From Rhodospirillales bacterium (GTDB taxonomy: Bacteria; Pseudomonadota; Alphaproteobacteria; Dongiales; Dongiaceae), in assembly GCA_009885795.1 (NCBI GenBank), contig VFKA01000024.1:1-63182 (forward strand): DNA of 63,182 nucleotides. The letters run 5' to 3'. The notes below the pieces were generated by a model. That model did no database searches, was not told the DNA's origin, and worked only from the letters and a program-made list of their open reading frames with translations. Both the position numbers and the translations under genes were made by a program. Positions 1,430 through 48,328 of this stretch are shown piece after piece (position 1 is the first letter of the stretch; the number at the start of each line of letters is the position of its first letter).

Positions 1430-4400
1430 GTCCGCGCCTCGCGTTCGACGAGATGGACCCGGCCCAACCGATCGACCGTCAGCTTTGTAAGGCTCGATAA
1501 AGTACGGGCACCCGTGCCGCGCACCTTCGCGTCCCTGCTTTGATGCAGCGAGACATGGATGGCCCCGGTTGAACGATCCATGCCCCGGAAATATCCGCGC
1601 AGCACTTCACCATCCGGTTTGACCATCTCGATCAACGACATCGGATGCAGCGGCCAAAGAAACTCGTGACCCTCGTCCACCGATTGCCACTCACTTTCCA
1701 AAACGCCACCCTGCGCCCATTTTCTAGGCGGGGCGGTGTCCATCGCCACCTGATGCGGATAGACGGGCACTAGGAAGTACTGCCAAGCGCCCCTCCGATG
1801 TTTCTTTCGGAAGACATCGACGCGGACCATTTCGCCCCGATCAACGATACCGCCGCGAATCGATACGCCGTCCTTTGCCCTATTGAGAATGCGGACCTTG
1901 CGCACCGGGTCGCCCTTCGGCGATAGCGGAGACGTGTTCTTGGGCTTGCCGGCCTCGATCCAGGCGCGCAGGCTTTCGATCAACTTGCCATTGCGCTCCG
2001 GCCCCTTGACCAATTCCAAGTCCTTGAGCGTCAGTTTTTCGACGGACTCGCGTTCGTAGATACTGCCGCCGTCCAACTGCTTGATGGTCGCGTCGTGGGC
2101 CTTGCCCCGCGCACGGCGGCGCTCGGCGCGGGCCACGAACACCGATAGGACCGCCGCCTTGGCCTGATCGCGAAAGCCCGGCCACGGTTGGGGCATGTCG
2201 GCGATCTCCCGGCCCAATCCGCGCCGCTCCGCCTCCTGGAATGCCCTCGTCAGCCGGTTCAGGATACCCTCGGTCGTGGCGGCGCAAACCAGGGCGTCGA
2301 GCGCGTGATGGCGGTCGTCGGACAGGCGCTTGCCGTCGGCGTCCTTTTTCAAATCCTGGACGCCCCAAGCCTGACGCAGTTTGCTGGTGATCGAACCGGG
2401 ACGCGCGAACACCCGCCGCCGGCCGGGCTCGGGCGGATACTTTTGCTCAAGGAATCCGGCCAGGGCCCGCGAGGCATAGCGGGTATCGTTCAGGTTCCGG
2501 CTGCGGAACCGCTCCTCGACCTCGGCGGCATTTTTCAACAACAGGTTTCGCTTCTTGAATCCGCGAAAGACCTTGTTGCCCTCGACGCGCGCGACAAAGG
2601 CATCCCAGCCGTCCTCGCTTTTCGTGTTCGAGAACCATTCGAATGGGGTCTGGCCCCGCTTGTCCTGGTTCGCCTTCGCGGTGACCAGGGCCTTGTTGTG
2701 GAAACTGTCGTCGCCGAACCGGCTCCACGGCAGAATGTGATCCACTTGCGCCTCGTTCGCGGTGGAGGCGACGGCCTTCGGATCGATGTAGGCGTCGGTA
2801 TAGATGCAGCGGCAATTCTGCTGCTTCCATAACTCGTAACGAAGCAGATCCTCGGCGGTGCGCGGCGCGTGGCCGATGTCCTCCTCGTACTGGGTACGGA
2901 GCCTGTCTTTCTCCGCGTTACGCTTGTCGATGCCGCTCTTGATCTCGTCGCGCTGGTCCTTGCTCTTGCCGACGTCGCGGGCAAGCTCGATGTGGATGGC
3001 GTCGGGGATGCCATACTCGCGCACCACGGCGTTGACTTGCTTCACTGCCTCCGACAGCGCCTTGCGCGCCACCGGGCTGCCGATGTCCTTAAGTTCGACC
3101 GTCGGCCGCGCCGCGTGGTCGTAGCCGGCCTGGGCGCAGGCGTCGGAGTAAACTCGCCCTTGCCTAAGAAACGGAATGATCGCCCGGGCCGCCATAGAGG
3201 AAATGTGCCCCGCGCCCGTGAAGCGGGCGAAGGCGCCTGCGTTCACTGCGTCCATGACCGCCTTGACGATGAGCGGATCGAGCGCCAATTCCTCCAGGCC
3301 CGCCCGAATCCGTTCCGGCGCGTCCCGAAAGGTCAGTACTTCGGCGAGGCGGTCAAGCCGTTCGGGCGTTTTCACCAGTGACAACCAGCCGGCATCGCCA
3401 AGCACGTCGCGGAGCTTGGCCGTGCCGAACGCGGCCTCGCCCTTGCGCGCCGCGACATCGTGCTTTTCGTCCTCGATGCTTACGCCAACGAACCGGCAGT
3501 CGGGGTCTAGCCCGATCGTCTTCCGCAGGGACTTGAACGTGATCTTGGCGGTTCGGCCGAAATTGGCTGCCGCGTTACTGATTTCGTCAGCCGTCAGGGG
3601 CCTGTCGGTCCGCCCTGGCCTCACCCGCAGGGCGGTCAACCGCGACAGATAACGGAAGAGTTCAAAGGACGGCGCGCGTTTCGAGGTACGCTTCTCGTCG
3701 TTTTCGAACGGGCACGGGCCGAGAAGGCTCTCGCTGTCTTGTAACGGGCGCTGAAAGAAGGCGATCTCGGCCAAGCTCGATTGCAGAGCTTCACTGGCGA
3801 TTGGATTTCGAAGCCTTCTCTGCTCCTCGAATATCTTTCGCGTTTCCGCCTCGAGATCCTGGCGCAAGAGCGAACGGCTGTAGTCACCGTCGCGGTTGCG
3901 CAACCGCCCGGTGAAGGCGGGGTCCTTCACCAGCATTTCGCCAACCGTTCGATAGGCCGCCGATTTCTCGCGCGAGGCCTCGATCGCCTTCAGCATTTTC
4001 GAGGATTCGTCGGCGGCGTTCGCGCCGTCGCTCTTCTTGTTGGACTTGAAGCCGCGATGCTTGGCGATATGCGCCACCGCGACCGCGAATTCCTCGGCTC
4101 CAAGAACCCGATCAAGGGCCTCGGCCCGCAGTTTCCACGGATCGCGGCCCGGCATCTTCAAGACATCCTTGTCGTCGCTTGGTAGAAGTTTGTGATCGAA
4201 CAGCAACCGGCGGATGGCGTTCATGCGCTGGCGCCGGCGTCGAATCACCCGCCGCTGCCCGCGCATGGTTCGCCGGATTTGGTTCGTCGGCTTGCGCTCT
4301 TTGTCCGTTTCCGGCGCATCGAACATCCAGGTGCCAAGCGCGACGATCTGCCCGACGGATTGGGCCTGAGCGTCGTCGTTTTCCAGATCGATCAGCGCCC

Positions 4401-41408: not shown

Positions 41409-43754
41409 ATGCTGTTGACCTCCAGGATCGGCGGACGGGGCGTGCGCGAGCCGGGGCTGCCGGCGATCGTGCCGGGCCTCGAACGCTACCGGGTGAAGGG
41501 CGGCGGCGCCGTCGTGGTGGCACTGGCGCCCGGCGACGAGATCGCCATCACCGACAGGGAGGGAAGGCAGGCCTGCGAGATCGGCGTCTTTTCGCCCGAC
41601 GGACGCGAGGATGCGGGCGCGCTCGGGCTTGTTGCGAAGGGCAAGGCCGAGGGCATTTCCAGGCTGCTGCGCGGCGAGGGCGAGAGGGCGGAAGCCATTG
41701 CCGCCGCGCTGCGCCGGCGCGGGGTTGCCGGCAATGTGGAGAAGGCCGCCATCCTCTTCGAGCACGACAGCCGGCCGGGCGAGACGGTGCGGTTGAAGGC
41801 CGAGCGCGCCGCGATCTGCATCATCCATGCGGCCGGCGGGCCGATGGCGGCGGATGCGCAAGACCCGCCGACCGAGCTTGGCGTCGCCATCCAGCGCGCC
41901 GCGGTGGCGAGCGACTGGCGCCCGCCATTGCCCGACCCCTTGGCCGACATCAAGAACGAGGCCCGAATCCCGCCGGGCACCGCCTTCGCCTACGAGGTGA
42001 AGGCCGGGGAGTATATCCAGATCATCGACGTGGAGGGGCGGCAGTGTTCCGACTTCGTCGCCTTCGATGCGCGGAAGTTGCAAGCGGGCATCGAGCGCGG
42101 GCTCGATCAGACCACGACCCGCACGCTCATGGCTGCGGCCTATCCGGCGCCAGGACTCTATTCCAAGTTCCTGGACCGGGACATGCAGCCGCTGGTCGAG
42201 GTGGTGCGCGACACGGTCGGGCGCCACGACAGCTTCGCGCTTGCCTGCACGGCGAAGTACTACGACGATTTGGGATATCCCGGCCACGTCAACTGCTCGG
42301 AGAATTTCAACAAGGCGGTGGCGCCTTACGGTGTCGAGCAACGCAAGGGTTGGCCGGCGATCAACTTCTTCTACAACACCGGCATCAATGCCCAGAACGT
42401 GCTCTATCTCGACGAGCCGTGGTCGCGGCCGGGCGATTATGTCCTCGTGCGCGCGCTCACCGATCTCGTCTGCGCGTCCTCCTCCTGCCCCGATGACATC
42501 GACGCCGCGAACGCATGGAACCCGACCGACATTCACGTCCGCGTCTATCCGGCCCGCAACAGCTTTAGCAAGGCGATGGCATTCCGCATGGCACCCGACG
42601 CAGAACCCGAGCTGACCCGCGAGACGGCGTTCCACAAGCGCACGTCCGCGCTCACCCGCGCCTTCACCGAGTATCGCGGCTTCTGGCTGCCCCAGCGCTA
42701 CAACAACCACGGCGCGGTGGATGAGTATTACGCATGCCGCGAGCGGGCGGTGGTGACCGACCTGTCGCCGCTTCGCAAGTTCGAGGTGGTGGGTCCGGAT
42801 TCCGAGACGCTGCTGCAACGGGCCTGCACCAGGAACATCCGCCGCCTCGCCGTGGGGCAGGTGGTCTATACGGCGATGTGCTACGAGCATGGCGGCATGG
42901 TGGATGACGCCACCGTGTTCCGGCTGGGCAAGGACAATTTCCGGCTCATTGGCGGCGACGAGCATGACGGGCGCTGGCTGAGGGAGCTGGCGGAGAAGGA
43001 TGGCCTCAAGGTCTGGGTGAAGTCCTCGACCGACCAGCTCCACAACATCGCGGTGCAGGGGCCGCGCTCGCGCGACATCCTGAAGGAAGTCCTGTGGACG
43101 GCGCCGGCCAGCCCCACTCTGGCCGAGCTCGCCTGGTTCCACTTCGCGGTGGCGCGGCTGGGCGATTTCAACGGCGCGCCGCTGGTGGTCTCGCGCACGG
43201 GCTATACGGGGGAGCTTGGCTATGAGCTTTTCTGCCACCCCAAGGATGCCTTGGCGGTTTGGGACGCGGTGATGGCGGCGGGCAAGCCCCACGGAATCGT
43301 GCCCATGGGGCTCGAGGCCTTGGACATGCTCAGGATCGAGGCGGGGCTGATCTTCTTCGGCACCGAGTTCACCGACAAGACCGACCCGTTCGAGGCCGGC
43401 ATCGGCTTCACGGTGGCGCTCAAGGGGAACGAGGAGTTCATCGGCCGCGAGGCGCTGATAAGGCGCAAGGAACACCCGAGGGAGACGCTGGTCGGGCTGG
43501 AGCTCGAAGGCGCGGAAGCCGCGGCGCACGGGAATTGCGTTCATGTCGGCCGGGCGCAAGTGGGCGTGGTGACGAGCGCCATGCGCTCGCCCATCCTCAA
43601 GAAAAACGTGGCGCTGGCGCGCCTCGACGTGGCCCATGCGGCGATCGGAACGGCGGTGGAGGTCGGCAAGATCGACGGCCACCAGAAACGGATCGCGGCC
43701 AAGGTGGCGCGGTTCCCGTTTTACGACCCGGAGAAGGCTCGGGTGCGGGGCTGA
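41409..43754 (+). CDS. DUF1989-GcvT fusion protein
   Basis: The 781-residue protein has three parts. Residues 1-175 look like a diverged DUF1989 (urea-carboxylase-associated) half (PGLERYRVKGGGAVVVALAP). Residues about 180-385 are a fuller DUF1989 domain (FAYEVKAGEYIQIIDVEGRQ, CSDFVAFDARK, NFFYNTGIN). Residues about 395-781 are a GcvT aminomethyltransferase-like module (YRGFWLPQRYNNHGAVDEYY, CEHGGMVDD-like CYEHGGMVDDATVF, SRTGYTGELGYELFC). It probably moves a one-carbon unit between an amine-derived compound and THF. Only 10 bp separate it from the MgtE-like gene. Confidence 0.85.
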   Translation: MLLTSRIGGRGVREPGLPAIVPGLERYRVKGGGAVVVALAPGDEIAITDREGRQACEIGVFSPDGREDAGALGLVAKGKAEGISRLLRGEGERAEAIAAALRRRGVAGNVEKAAILFEHDSRPGETVRLKAERAAICIIHAAGGPMAADAQDPPTELGVAIQRAAVASDWRPPLPDPLADIKNEARIPPGTAFAYEVKAGEYIQIIDVEGRQCSDFVAFDARKLQAGIERGLDQTTTRTLMAAAYPAPGLYSKFLDRDMQPLVEVVRDTVGRHDSFALACTAKYYDDLGYPGHVNCSENFNKAVAPYGVEQRKGWPAINFFYNTGINAQNVLYLDEPWSRPGDYVLVRALTDLVCASSSCPDDIDAANAWNPTDIHVRVYPARNSFSKAMAFRMAPDAEPELTRETAFHKRTSALTRAFTEYRGFWLPQRYNNHGAVDEYYACRERAVVTDLSPLRKFEVVGPDSETLLQRACTRNIRRLAVGQVVYTAMCYEHGGMVDDATVFRLGKDNFRLIGGDEHDGRWLRELAEKDGLKVWVKSSTDQLHNIAVQGPRSRDILKEVLWTAPASPTLAELAWFHFAVARLGDFNGAPLVVSRTGYTGELGYELFCHPKDALAVWDAVMAAGKPHGIVPMGLEALDMLRIEAGLIFFGTEFTDKTDPFEAGIGFTVALKGNEEFIGREALIRRKEHPRETLVGLELEGAEAAAHGNCVHVGRAQVGVVTSAMRSPILKKNVALARLDVAHAAIGTAVEVGKIDGHQKRIAAKVARFPFYDPEKARVRG

Positions 43755-43923: not shown

Positions 43924-44406
43924 ATGCGCAAGGACGAGACGGGCGGGGCGACGGTGGCGGGCGAGAGCGTGGGGCCGGCGGCGGCGGTGACCGGGACCGG
44001 CGATCTCGGGCTTTCGAACGAGTTGATGGCGCAGTTGGCGCGCTGTCTGTGGCTGCCGGAGGGCTTGGGCGAGGCGGAGCAGCGGGAGCGGGTGGCGGCC
44101 GCGGCGGCGGCGCTCAAGGGGCTGGCGCCGCGCGACGAGTTGGAGGGCATGCTGGCAGCGCAGATGGTGGCGACGCACGCGGGCGCGATGGAGTGCCTGA
44201 AGCGGGCCATGGTGGGCGAGGGTTGGGCGGCCGAGCGCGAGGCGAATTTGCGCCAGGCGGGGCGGCTTCTGGCGATCTACACAAGGCAGGCGGAGGCGCT
44301 GATCCGCAATCGCCTGCGCGGGCGCTCGCGGGTCAAGGTCGAGGAAATACGCAAGGTGCGGATGGGGCGCGTGATGCTGCGCGAAGTGACGGAGCGGCGG
44401 GGGTGA
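43924..44406 (+). CDS. Phage-like protein of unknown function
   Basis: The 160-residue protein contains LKGLAPRDELEGMLAAQMVA, THAGAMECLKRAM and NLRQAGRLLAIYTRQAEALI. Similar proteins recur in alphaproteobacterial mobile regions next to a short HGG...GAP.GN.NA.KHG protein, which is also the case here. AAGGAG lies 8 bp before the ATG. The C-terminus is Arg-rich. The function is unknown; a terminase-like or DNA-packaging link is only a guess. Confidence 0.65.
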   Translation: MRKDETGGATVAGESVGPAAAVTGTGDLGLSNELMAQLARCLWLPEGLGEAEQRERVAAAAAALKGLAPRDELEGMLAAQMVATHAGAMECLKRAMVGEGWAAEREANLRQAGRLLAIYTRQAEALIRNRLRGRSRVKVEEIRKVRMGRVMLREVTERRG

Positions 44407-44422
44407 TGGATGACGGTCGGCA

Positions 44423-44644
44423 ATGCGGGGCGGCCGGAATGGGCGCGCGTGCTTGCGAAGGCCGTGCGCCGGGAAGCGCCGCTGCCGCCTGCACGGCGGG
44501 GCGTTGGGGAGCGGCGCGCCCATGGGCAACAAGAACGCGATGAAGCATGGGCACTATGCGATGGTGGCGGTTGAACAGCGGCGCGCGCTCGCGGAATTCT
44601 TGCGGCGAGCCCGCGAGACGCTGGAGGCGATGGGGGAGGGATAG
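44423..44644 (+). CDS. HGG-GAPMGNKNAMKHG motif small protein
   Basis: The 73-residue protein has CLRRPCAGKRRCRLHGG, GAPMGNKNAMKHGHY and a C-terminal helix (RRALAEFLRRARETLEAM). The Cys/His N-terminus may bind zinc. The motif marks a widespread small family in mobile and phage-derived regions, sometimes annotated near terminase small subunits. It is paired with the gene 16 bp upstream. Confidence 0.65.
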   Translation: MRGGRNGRACLRRPCAGKRRCRLHGGALGSGAPMGNKNAMKHGHYAMVAVEQRRALAEFLRRARETLEAMGEG

Positions 44645-44741: not shown

Positions 44742-45518
44742 TTGAGCTTACGCAACGGATCATCGAGTAACATCTTGATAGAGCTAGCGAAATGGAATGC
44801 ACAGGTCTTGCGTTTCACCCTTTTCCCGGGTGATCCCGCCGGTGGGGCGGGGCTCTGGGAGAAAGTGGTCGGCGAGGCCCCGGCTGTAGACGAGCATAGG
44901 CCGCGCGAACGAATCAGACGCCAGGTTGGACCGCTAGGTGATGTCTCTTTGGAGCTGAAAGTTTCTGATCTGCGCCTCGACTGGATGATAGTACCGGCGA
45001 CAAGCGAGGGGCAGACTCAATCCATTAGTGCTGGATCACTTGATAGATCTCTGGAGCAATTCGATGGTCTCCTCAAACCTTGGTTGCAAGTCCCGCTGCA
45101 GTTTGGCGTAAGACGAGTTGCCTTTGGGCTTGTGGCGGTGCTTCCCGTCATTGATCGCTTGGCTGCCTATGATCAATTGCAGAATCTGGTTCCTTCCGTG
45201 ACATTCGATGCCAAGAATACGCGCGAGGTACTTTACCGTGTAAATCGGCCGAAAACTTCGCGTGTGTTGCTACGTAGCGAACTCAATAGAATTACCACTT
45301 GGAATTCGATTTCCGTGCGTTCGTCATTATTTACGATAAGTGAGTCTGGTGTCGAGCTGTCCGGCCATAGCGACGATGAACATTTCGTGCGATGCGAGTG
45401 CGACAACAGCACTTCAGGGGAGACCACCCCCCTCCTGGAAAACTCTCAATTGCTGCCCATATACGACGAATTGCGCGATATGGCGGTGGAGAACGTGCAA
45501 CATGGAGAATTGCCATGA
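44742..45518 (+). CDS. Island protein A, unknown function
   Basis: The 258-residue protein reads WNAQVLRFTLFPGDPAGGAG, LRLDWMIVPATSEGQTQ, FGVRRVAFGLVAVLPVIDRL, LYRVNRPKTSRVLLRSELNR and ends LPIYDELRDMAVENVQHGEL. The layout loosely recalls TIGR04255-like proteins that occur sporadically in mobile regions; this is an impression, not an assignment. TTG is the only plausible start. Base composition is clearly more AT-rich than in flanking genes. It overlaps gene B by 4 bp (ATGA). Confidence 0.7.
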   Translation: MSLRNGSSSNILIELAKWNAQVLRFTLFPGDPAGGAGLWEKVVGEAPAVDEHRPRERIRRQVGPLGDVSLELKVSDLRLDWMIVPATSEGQTQSISAGSLDRSLEQFDGLLKPWLQVPLQFGVRRVAFGLVAVLPVIDRLAAYDQLQNLVPSVTFDAKNTREVLYRVNRPKTSRVLLRSELNRITTWNSISVRSSLFTISESGVELSGHSDDEHFVRCECDNSTSGETTPLLENSQLLPIYDELRDMAVENVQHGELP

Positions 45519-46273
45519 GCGAGGCAACGCAAGCTACGGCACCGGCCGGCCATTTTGCCGCGCGCTTCTTGGAGCAAACTGCATTGGGTGACCATGCGTT
45601 TGAAGCATCGGAGCCGGCGCCAATGGCCATTGTTCACAAGGATGATGCGGCAACGGGTCACGTGCTTTCGCAGCGACTTGTGTTCGGCATCCTTGGTGTT
45701 GGCGGATCAAACTCTAACTGGAAAGTAGTCTTACCGGACATAACATGGCTTTCGCCAACCGAGATCTTGTATATCCATTGCCCAGTCGAATGGCCTGCGG
45801 TAGGAATTGTTTCCGACATTTCGGCGGGTACGGCACATTCGGCGACGGCAGCTCAGCAGTTCGAGGAAGCGCTGTTGAGGTGGCGGGGATTGGTGGCTCC
45901 TCATCATCTCGAAGCCATGCAAGCACATGTCGAACGCCTTCTCGGTGATGAGGACGAGCTTCGTGAGGACGACATATCGCCGTCGATGAGGTCGTTTGAT
46001 GAACTGCTTGAGTTTCTTGCCCGTCGTCGTTGGGCAAGGCCCCCGGCTGTGGGACTGGATAGACGCGGGTGCTTTTCCCTCTCTTGGATTCGGGCGAGAG
46101 ACATCCGAGCGGATCTCACATTGACGTTCTTGGGAGACGGTTTGGTTCGGTGGTATTTTTTCGATGCCAGCAATCCTGGCGCCCCGATTTCTAGCGCTGC
46201 GGGAACCGCGCAGAGAAAGGATCTTTCCAGAATCCTGGCCGGCTTTGGCTGCGAAAAGTGGGGGGCCATGTGA
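45515..46273 (+). CDS. Island protein B, unknown function
   Basis: The 252-residue protein's segments include HFAARFLEQTALGDHAFEAS, FGILGVGGSNSNWKVVLPDI, ILYIHCPVEWPAVGIVSDIS, SFDELLEFLARRRWARPPAV and LTLTFLGDGLVRWYFFDASN. No catalytic motif stands out and there are no membrane helices. ATG 45515 has GGAGA upstream. It is translationally coupled at both ends (ATGA with A, GTGA with C), so A, B and C should be made together. Confidence 0.7.
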   Translation: MSEATQATAPAGHFAARFLEQTALGDHAFEASEPAPMAIVHKDDAATGHVLSQRLVFGILGVGGSNSNWKVVLPDITWLSPTEILYIHCPVEWPAVGIVSDISAGTAHSATAAQQFEEALLRWRGLVAPHHLEAMQAHVERLLGDEDELREDDISPSMRSFDELLEFLARRRWARPPAVGLDRRGCFSLSWIRARDIRADLTLTFLGDGLVRWYFFDASNPGAPISSAAGTAQRKDLSRILAGFGCEKWGAM

Positions 46274-46707
46274 AAGGTGAGGAGTTACCGCCAGATGATC
46301 ACGTCCTTCGGCATTGTGGAAAATTCGATCTGATATCCGAGGCTGACGGCGAAATCCAACGTGTAGCGCCAAGTGCCTTCGAGCCGGATGCTGATGGCAT
46401 TTCTGTAACATGGGTCGAGTATTTTGCGGGTTTACGGTCAACGCAAGTAGCTGAGGCGCGTTACGCGATGGCGCGCGGTCGCAAGTTGAGAAAGAGCCAC
46501 CGCTTGGCCATGTTAAACGTTGGCAGCATTGTAGAAGCAGGTAGGAATCTTAATGTGCCCACCCGGGTCGTCCATGATCCAATATTGGAACCGCCGGAGA
46601 AAGACAACTCCGCGCACTCATTGATCAAGGGGGTACCTGCGGATAATCACGATCTTCAAAACCGGCTCGCGCACTTGGTAATTTCGCTGGAAGTCGCCAA
46701 GGAATAG
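46270..46707 (+). CDS. Island protein C, unknown function
   Basis: The product is about 145 residues from the GTG at 46270, which overlaps the B stop; an upstream in-frame ATG is at 46258. It begins with DDHVLRHCGKFDLISEADGE, then APSAFEPDADGISVTWVEYF, followed by a Lys/Arg-rich middle (RGRKLRKSHRLAMLNVGSIV) and AHSLIKGVPADNHDLQNRLA. The DDHVLR start and W.EYF core recur in small proteins of accessory regions as I remember them, without known function. It is the last gene of the trio. Confidence 0.65.
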   Translation: MKGEELPPDDHVLRHCGKFDLISEADGEIQRVAPSAFEPDADGISVTWVEYFAGLRSTQVAEARYAMARGRKLRKSHRLAMLNVGSIVEAGRNLNVPTRVVHDPILEPPEKDNSAHSLIKGVPADNHDLQNRLAHLVISLEVAKE

Positions 46708-46786
46708 AGCGTCCGGTATCAACAGACCGGCCGCCCGCAACTCGTGCGCTCGGTGACGTTGGCAGACGGTCTCATCTCGCTCGCGG

Positions 46787-47515
46787 CTAGTCGGGCGGCG
46801 CCTCGCACTTCACCGCGAAATCGACGTGGTAGTGCTCGTCGTAGCGCCACCAGGCTTGGCGCTCCATGAACTTGACGTTCCGTTTCAGATAGGGGCCGCG
46901 CGGTGTGGCGAATAGCGCGGGCAGATAGCGCGGATTGAAAATCACGATGGCGATGTCGGCGGCGTGGGATCGCGCGGCCCGGTGGAGTTGGTAGAGGTGC
47001 TCGCCGATCGCGGCGAAGTCGATCGTATAGCCCTCATAGCGTCCCCTATCATCGAACTCCAGATCATAGCCGAAGCGGTTGAAGGCGCTCGAGGGAAGCG
47101 GTACCGAACGGCCGTCGGCATCGAGCACCGGCACCATGAAATCGACCGAGAGGCCATTTTGGTGGGTGCGATGCGGCTTGAAGCTGCCGCCCGATTTCCA
47201 GCCGGTTTCGCCGTAGACGAAAGTCTTTCCGGGCGCCGATTCCCGAAGCGCCTTGTAGGCGGCGACGACGATCTCGGCGACTTTGGCATGGACATCGGTT
47301 CGCCCGATGGCGGCCGCGATGGAGCTGTAGGCCTCGAAGTTGGCGCCGTCGGTCGGGAGCGCGACGCCGCCTTCCAATCGCCCGTTCGCCGTGGTGCCGA
47401 AGCAGGTGCTTTCCGCGGCCAGCGCCTGCTGCGTCAGGGCGAAAGCAAAGAGTATCGAGACAACCAAGTTCACGGCGGAGTGTCCCCGTGTTGGAACGAA
47501 GCAGATCATGCGCAT
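46787..47515 (-). CDS. Penicillin-insensitive murein endopeptidase-like (MepA/LAS family)
   Basis: The 242-residue protein has a signal peptide (NLVVSILFAFALTQQALAAES). The mature part matches MepA-type metalloendopeptidases: GETGWKSGGSFKPHRTHQNG, LSVDFMVPV and a C-terminal DEHYHVDF. The His..Asp and final His would bind zinc. It would cleave peptide cross-links in peptidoglycan in the periplasm. Several upstream starts are possible; 47515 is chosen because the signal peptide follows it. Confidence 0.85.
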   Translation of the reverse strand: MRMICFVPTRGHSAVNLVVSILFAFALTQQALAAESTCFGTTANGRLEGGVALPTDGANFEAYSSIAAAIGRTDVHAKVAEIVVAAYKALRESAPGKTFVYGETGWKSGGSFKPHRTHQNGLSVDFMVPVLDADGRSVPLPSSAFNRFGYDLEFDDRGRYEGYTIDFAAIGEHLYQLHRAARSHAADIAIVIFNPRYLPALFATPRGPYLKRNVKFMERQAWWRYDEHYHVDFAVKCEAPPD

Positions 47516-47613
47516 CGATTTCGGCGATTCGATGGCATCAGGATTCGCCGGTTGGGAGCCGTCCAATTGCATTAACACGACACGATCCCTAGCGTGCAGC
47601 CATCTTGCCCCCC

Positions 47614-47665: not shown

Positions 47666-48328
47666 TCACTCCACCCTCACCCCCATGTAGCCGGCGTAGT
47701 CGGACTCCACCCGGCGCGCCGGGTTGCCGGCCACGTGCGTGTTGTCGGGAATGTCGCGCGTCACCACCGAGCCGGCTGCCACCATGCAATTGTCGCCGAT
47801 GGCGACGCCCACGGCGATGACGGCGCCGGCGCCGATCATGGTTCCCTTACCGATGCGGCAACGCGCCACGGTCGTCGCCCCCGGTCCAAGCGCCGAGAAC
47901 GGGCCGAGGCGGGCATGATGCCCGATCGAGGCGTTGCGGTTGAGGATGGCGAATTCGTCGAGCTCGGCATAGGCGCCGACAGTGGCGCCGGCATTGAGGA
48001 AGACGCCCGGCGCCAGGACCGCATTCCTTGCGTGGCTGGCATGCGGGTCCACGAGAGCCGGGAAATCCTTGGAGCCGGTGGCCCGCGCGGCCACCGCGCG
48101 CTGCCACCGTCGCGCCGGGGCCAGGCCCGCCACCGCCGCCGGTAGTTCGAGAAGACGCGGATCGATATCCTCGGCGCCGACGACCGTGACGCCGGCCAGA
48201 TCCCATTCCGCCTCTCCGGTGAGGATGCCGGCTTCGAGGACATAGCCAAGCCGGCCAAGGGTTTCGATCACCTCGACCGCGAAAACGGACTGGACACCAT
48301 AGAGAACAATTGGTTTCGTCATTTCCAT
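47666..48328 (-). CDS. NeuD/PglD-family sugar O/N-acetyltransferase
   Basis: The 220-residue protein has an N-terminal Rossmann-like domain ([20 protein letters not shown]) and a C-terminal left-handed beta-helix of hexapeptide repeats ([74 protein letters not shown]). It transfers acetyl from acetyl-CoA to a nucleotide sugar in surface glycan synthesis. No other glycan genes are near. ATG 48328 or 48322 may serve as start. Confidence 0.88.

Follow-up and report, generated by a model that had tools for sequence, protein, structure and literature searches.

The three genes described here lie side by side on the forward strand of a 63,182-nt stretch of DNA, which was analysed as a whole and is called the window below. 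Gene A (44742..45518) is an open reading frame of 258 aa when read from the TTG codon at 44742, or perhaps of 247 aa from a TTG at 44775; aligned with its relative in genome G437, the second codon may be the true start. It is followed by the open reading frames of gene B (45515..46273, 252 aa) and gene C (46270..46707, 145 aa), the latter starting with GTG. A and B share the bases ATGA (45515..45518, forward strand) and B and C the bases GTGA (46270..46273, forward strand). These two four-base overlaps of stop and start codons, read directly in the sequence, agree with the preliminary description of this DNA. That description also stated that the three products are made in fixed proportion, which is more than overlapping stop and start codons permit. 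A promoter and terminator scan gave nothing exceeding chance.

The 1966-base stretch from A to C has a GC content of 0.544, compared with 0.666 in the rest of the window; sliding windows of 1966 bases across the 63,182 nt average 0.662 with a standard deviation of 0.027. The 1-kb blocks of lowest GC are 45001-46000 (0.534) and 46001-47000 (0.578), and the minimum elsewhere is 0.608. Third codon positions tell the same: GC3 is 0.556 in A, 0.569 in B and 0.548 in C, and 0.88, 0.79 and 0.81 in the neighbours at 41409-43754, 46787-47578 and 47666-48328. Codon use in the trio is thus AT-richer than on both flanks, as had been proposed (GC3 0.55-0.57 vs 0.79-0.92 in the nearest genes). The GC3 table comprises 28 frames, some of them picked mechanically, and the comparison uses near neighbours because three frames (g22, g33 and g60) have odd codon-position values. 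We conclude that A, B and C probably form one operon-like, horizontally acquired unit that travels together.

A pair of phage-like genes does precede the trio (43924-44406 and 44423-44644), as first noted, but its GC3 is native (0.92 and 0.88) and the pair therefore lies outside the AT-rich piece; we reject it as part of the cassette. The 73-aa protein of this pair weakly matches a terminase small subunit family (phrog_1889, 1.4e-7) and scores 27.3 bits with the HGGxSTG model, under its cut-off of 29. Genome G005 (L069), in which neither A nor C was matched, has a comparable pair of genes, for 241 and 77 aa. Downstream, on the reverse strand, 46787-47578 resembles an M74-type murein endopeptidase gene (PF03411, 28.7 bits, cut-off 25); a search of 20 relatives did not find it. 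Further upstream, 41409-43754 encodes 781 aa, whose translation we take to be a fusion of a urea-carboxylase-associated domain with an aminomethyltransferase of the GcvT type.

The three proteins had been described as having no recognised domain, membrane helix or catalytic motif, and the searches bear this out. Neither A, B nor C matches any Pfam, NCBIfam, PADLOC (2023 version) or PHROGs model at E<=1. Toxin and antitoxin families in these four libraries are included in this result, as are the known anti-phage systems of PADLOC-DB. Since Pfam and NCBIfam gave no housekeeping family for any of the three, and no other family match was obtained, we did not adopt a housekeeping or phage structural role. 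The maximum 19-residue Kyte-Doolittle means (A 1.64, which is borderline, B 1.15 and C 0.65) give no clear membrane helix, and no catalytic residue set was identified for the trio. Gene A encodes a slightly acidic protein (27 K+R vs 34 D+E), whose predicted structure is of very low confidence (pLDDT 31). In alignments with the homologues presented below, the conserved module of B is its C-terminal part, with near-invariant Pro177 and Gly185 and an invariant Trp191, while in C Arg14 and His116 are nearly invariant.

Homologues of the trio recur in the same order in other bacteria. A first search of 96 genomes, the window's own included, found one other A (G080, 27% identity, E 3e-18) and one other C (G076, 30%, E 3e-5). 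The C relative of G076 is the third gene of a row of three, in which gene 1 matches the NCBIfam family TIGR04255 with 80.8 bits (cut-off 30), gene 2 matches window B (BLASTP 2e-4) and gene 3 matches window C (BLASTP 3e-9). TIGR04255 was then located at 20 places in 16 of 240 genomes of the class, none of them the window's own genome. Downstream of these places recur a second gene mostly of 160-210 aa and a third mostly of 140-160 aa. At 10 of the 20, both B and C follow at a leave-one-out E<=0.02 (Z=1000). Either B or C is clear in G025 and G116, and the matches in G108 are marginal (B 0.089 to 0.43, C 0.045). At three other places the partners are an HTH-like gene, recognised by Pfam in one of them and by eye in the others, and a gene with a QTCD motif. 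In G185 a QTCD-like gene stands beside an integrase-like gene, in G017 there is a different pair, called B' and C' below, and in G125 and in the G041 fragment no partner was recognised.

Larger samples gave the same arrangement. Of 385 genomes of the class, seven, the window's own among them, matched a C profile of five proteins. The three new loci outside that profile (G327, G305 and G019) all have the order TIGR04255-B-C. Against a TIGR04255 profile made without them, gene 1 scores 3e-37 in G305 and, for its first piece, 2e-13 in G327. In G327 (L030) gene 1 is broken by an in-frame stop, and B and C are open. A 15-row C profile run on 369 genomes of the phylum found eight: the window's own, G085, which is in the profile, and six listed in the same phylum and in other classes. 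All six of these new loci have B next to C, and five have TIGR04255 in first position; the sixth runs out at the contig end. Four-base overlaps at both joints recur in G222 and G018; other trios have larger overlaps, abutting genes or short gaps.

The window genes themselves belong to these families. Window B aligns with the B of four TIGR04255 trios at E 2e-9 (hhalign); it is recovered by a leave-one-out profile at E 0.0043 (Z=1000) and by a 16-row profile lacking it at 6.4e-5, and window C is recovered by a leave-one-out profile at E 2e-19 (Z=1000). The N-terminal part of window B is longer than in most B proteins of TIGR04255 trios, as it is in G437; the B proteins of these two A-headed trios have 252 and 247 aa. 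When 185 flanking ORFs were used as decoys, the sole strong B match was gene 2 of the TIGR04255 locus of G116 (6e-11), the next was gene 2 of that of G108 (0.089), and the others were no better than E 3. The leave-one-out profiles did not recover B of G025, nor the presumed B and C of a Crinalium plasmid or the third gene of a Thermus locus; the assignments of the Crinalium genes as B and C and of the Thermus gene as C are thus unsupported. The third gene of the C96 locus of G080 matches C weakly (0.02).

It had been asked whether the three genes travel together across genomes. B and C do so in other families of the class, outside it, on viral contigs and on a plasmid, and in the window their homologues stand directly downstream of gene 1, on the same strand and overlapping. 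Neither outcome named beforehand as contradicting the preliminary description occurred, B and C staying together and no housekeeping family being matched. The spread is sporadic, with A in 3 and C in 7 of the 385 genomes of the class, own included. That the three frames arose by chance, or are functionless remains of phage DNA in decay, would suit an AT-rich patch near a small gene weakly resembling part of a terminase small subunit, but same-order homologues in distant bacteria, conserved positions and intact overlapping frames make it highly improbable. We regard it as very likely that gene 1, B and C constitute a conserved, co-travelling cassette.

The first gene of the window trio is where it departs from the usual arrangement. 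Four members of the A family, which is rare, were found: in the window, G080 and G363 among the 385 genomes of the class, and in the window and G437 among the 369 of the phylum. The G437 member was detected at E 2.7e-24 with an A profile lacking it, and it is followed by B (4e-13) and by a weak C (0.08). The partners of A in G363 are of another kind, here called B' and C'; they are homologues of the two genes that accompany TIGR04255 in G017 (1e-8 and 3e-16). In G080 the A-family gene is accompanied by a weakly HEAT-like protein of 272 aa and a protein of 166 aa. This last genome has four first-gene loci, three with TIGR04255 and one with an A-family gene (L002/L051, L007, L021 and L024). Considering the window and G437 against the TIGR04255 trios for the B-C background, and G363 against G017 for the B'-C' background, the A family and TIGR04255 therefore interchange in two settings, and it is likely that gene A is a functional stand-in for TIGR04255.

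Whether the two families also share an origin is a separate matter. Like A, TIGR04255 (TIGR04255.1, sporadTIGR04255) occupies the first slot before B and C and is comparable in length (241-300 aa among the rows used), and the two show a weak collinear profile match over the last strand and helix. Unlike TIGR04255 members, window A has no model match and no confident alignment, and it is not filed as a member. Two first genes without common ancestry could each have been recruited to partners of these kinds. Window A does not match NCBIfam TIGR04255 at E<=1 (cut-off 30 bits), A and its G437 relative do not match the TIGR04255 profile made here at E<=10, and a two-row A profile gives E 0.18 or worse against TIGR04255 profiles, at non-equivalent places (hhalign). 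Against separate recruitment, profiles of three and four A rows reach E 0.017 and E 0.006 (the latter by hhalign with a probability of 6%), both in the corresponding C-terminal region over the final strand and helix; the four-row match aligns 205-245 of 252 with 198-236 of 255. None of 120 column shuffles was as good (best 0.02), and reversed or unrelated profiles gave 0.11 or worse. The exchange of gene 1 in two partner backgrounds argues in the same direction. We think that separate recruitment is rather unlikely, and the comparison is suggestive of A and TIGR04255 being distant homologues, short of proof.

The partners of TIGR04255 also vary. In loci L006, L007 and L021 TIGR04255 is accompanied by an HTH-like and a QTCD gene, in L005 by B' and C'; both types share with the B-C trios the first gene and partners that are adjacent and on the same strand. 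No B or C profile match at E<=5 was found among 21 partner ORFs of L005, L006, L007, L021, L012, L009, G363, G080 and G017. For L012/L054, the QTCD-like gene and TIGR04255 adjoin an integrase-like gene in L054. The third genes of L005 and L059 contain the motifs G[LF]TC[AS]T and HVGL, reminiscent of papain-like or NlpC/P60 enzymes; that of L005 compares with Pfam NLPC_P60 at E 0.1.

Relatives of the cassette are found on mobile DNA. Three IMG/VR contigs have a TIGR04255-B-C trio. On L060 it is flanked by a minor tail gene (phrog_329, 1e-7) on one side and by a J-like tail gene (phrog_1101, 9e-108) on the other; as read from translations, L061 also has several terminase- and portal-like genes, and the trio of L062 lies downstream of an integrase-like gene. 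On a Mycobacterium paragordonae plasmid the trio (B 3.5e-13, C 1.5e-6) directly follows a mobF relaxase gene. The link to mobile elements proposed for the window thus holds through these relatives, but not through the upstream phage-like genes, which are of native composition. Two TIGR04255 queries found no match in 50,697 phage records, and as only three IMG/VR contigs were found with it, the cassette is not common in phages. Viral scans with three further alignments (A3, A4 and A9) gave no match. No plasmid matched A, B or the A-family protein of G437; C used as a query matched two Rhizobium gallicum plasmids. On a conjugative plasmid of this species the C homologue (L025, 5890-6420) lies near nif genes and a VapC gene, and by eye no gene 1 or B is recognised beside it. 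Peptide patterns of A and C, run on GTDB contigs, brought up no direct relative of either.

The AT-richness of the window trio is a general property of these loci. GC was below that of the flanks in 19 of 19 loci, by 12.9 points on average (Wilcoxon p 4e-6, to be taken as a guide only, the loci being related and the hosts different). The mycobacterial plasmid trio has a GC of 0.580 vs 0.686 in its flanks, and eight further loci all fall below theirs, by 1.4 to 21.5 points, with some flanks short (461 bases in G519; the slight drop of 1.4 points in G018 is against 857 bases). In total, first-gene/B/C loci are AT-richer than their flanks in 28 of the 28 measured, a set that includes Crinalium, whose partners are not recognised as B and C, and B and C only for G327 and G595. 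AT-richness and mobility suit any accessory gene and not defence alone. Taken together, mobility, scattered occurrence, AT-richness and a swappable gene 1 are what would be expected of the defence or stabilisation cassettes of mobile DNA.

Further information about gene 1 came from structure prediction. A TIGR04255 model obtained from three viral proteins (pLDDT 71, pTM 0.75) reads, to us, as two tandem beta-alpha-beta(3-4)-alpha repeats. The best solved structures in Foldseek are chains of TATA-binding protein (TBP) complexes (best E 1.7e-4, prob 0.99, TM 0.23-0.38), with guanidino kinases on a par with the TBP rows. VIA-align favours the kinases (Z 9.2 over 186 residues, rmsd 3.9), where values of 7-8 are typical without a clear match. 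In a 22-row TIGR04255 alignment a single column is invariant and three are nearly so. With so few invariant columns and a Z of 9.2 little above the stated background, a kinase reading was not adopted. The topology of tandem beta-alpha-beta repeats would be common to the TIGR04255 model, TBP and guanidino kinases, from which TIGR04255 differs in its low TM-scores, the lack of a kinase-like conserved residue set and the lack of a credible PDB sequence match; profiles of A, B and C likewise found none in the PDB.

The TBP similarity brings to mind a regulatory or DNA-binding module, in which a TBP-like gene 1 would bind DNA and B and C would modulate it. TBP complexes being the top Foldseek structures, and the HTH_3 domain in the second gene of the TIGR04255 cassette L006, are consistent with this. 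As the TM-scores to TBP are low (0.23-0.38), guanidino kinases do equally well and A is slightly acidic, we consider such a role quite improbable.

A second alternative is a stabilisation cassette resembling toxin-antitoxin systems, where B or C would inhibit growth, gene 1 or a partner would neutralise it and the element would be retained. Small overlapping genes, a mobile or plasmid setting and the sporadic spread agree with this explanation, and so do other TIGR04255 loci beside toxin-type genes (a zeta toxin family gene in Vibrio and VapC on Thermus pTB1). In the Vibrio plasmid, TIGR04255 is followed by a hypothetical gene and then by the gene annotated as zeta toxin family; in pTB1, VapC is just upstream. 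Against it, A, B and C match no toxin or antitoxin family, and the third gene at the Thermus locus is not found by the C profile. Toxin-antitoxin systems are usually pairs, and a three-gene layout with a first gene of 250 aa is larger. Stabilisation is therefore, in our opinion, a less likely role than defence, although one to be kept above regulation.

The preliminary description had proposed looking for known defence genes near the trio. The flank scan covered 89 of 133 listed flank proteins, mechanically called, from 12 loci. Among the Pfam matches listed (25 of 111 families) the flanks are mainly housekeeping; the matches listed did not establish any known defence system there. PADLOC matches, of which 25 of 96 families were listed, include mad3, mad8 and AriA with two proteins each. 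A Gabija system adjoining one trio was rejected, since the strong GajB matches belong, by eye, to an ordinary UvrD-type helicase. Two plasmid TIGR04255 loci with other partners do have defence-type neighbours: type I restriction-modification-like genes in Crinalium, and an Argonaute PAZ-domain gene and cas6 in Thermus pTB1 (these two and the Vibrio plasmid are the L033-L035 set). Genes that look HEPN-like by eye stand upstream of two trios, at 2524-3321 (reverse strand) in L008, where RNALVHG can be read, and at 560-1069 in L072.

Our preferred explanation is that the cassette is carried by prophages, plasmids and islands for protection, as anti-phage or superinfection defence. We give this predicted role a probability of roughly 0.4, the remainder beyond stabilisation and regulation being left to other roles. 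Gene 1 would be the non-catalytic binding or sensing part; we read it as such, and not as an enzyme, because of its two-repeat model and almost complete lack of invariant residues. B and C would be the acting pair under the control of gene 1, with C the likeliest effector candidate because of its nearly invariant polar pair of Arg and His. Prophage hotspots hold defence- or stabilisation-type cassettes, among them a three-gene system without clear domains, from a P2-like phage hotspot, which is reported to protect E. coli against P1 (PMC9122126). As described there, it is similar to the trio in having three genes, no clear predicted domain and a position as prophage cargo; it differs in that its protection was measured, whereas that of the trio is predicted.

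It is tempting to propose, as a more specific and doubtful version of the defence reading, that TIGR04255 and the A family are interchangeable sensors of an undescribed immune system of mobile elements, modular and made of three genes. Its gene 1 would have a bacterial TBP-like two-repeat fold and would be combined with at least four partner pairs (B-C, B'-C', the HTH and QTCD proteins, and the HEAT-like and 166-aa proteins), comparable to other modular immune systems that mix sensors and effectors.

The preliminary description regarded the trio as the likeliest place in the window for an undescribed system. This is right in that three co-travelling genes have no described function, but the cassette also occurs beyond the window, and its usual first gene already bears a name. 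TIGR04255 is catalogued in NCBIfam as a function-unknown family. The name is not mentioned in the main texts of the literature searched, and neither is what we take to be its InterPro number. By these homologies, the window trio is a variant form of a recurrent module, in which another gene has replaced the catalogued gene 1.

In summary, TIGR04255 heads a conserved, mobile and modular operon, which supplies partners and a testable role for a family catalogued without a function; its slot is also occupied by a second family that is hardly recognisable. If the defence reading is true, catalogues built on domains would have missed this system, since none of its parts has a named domain.
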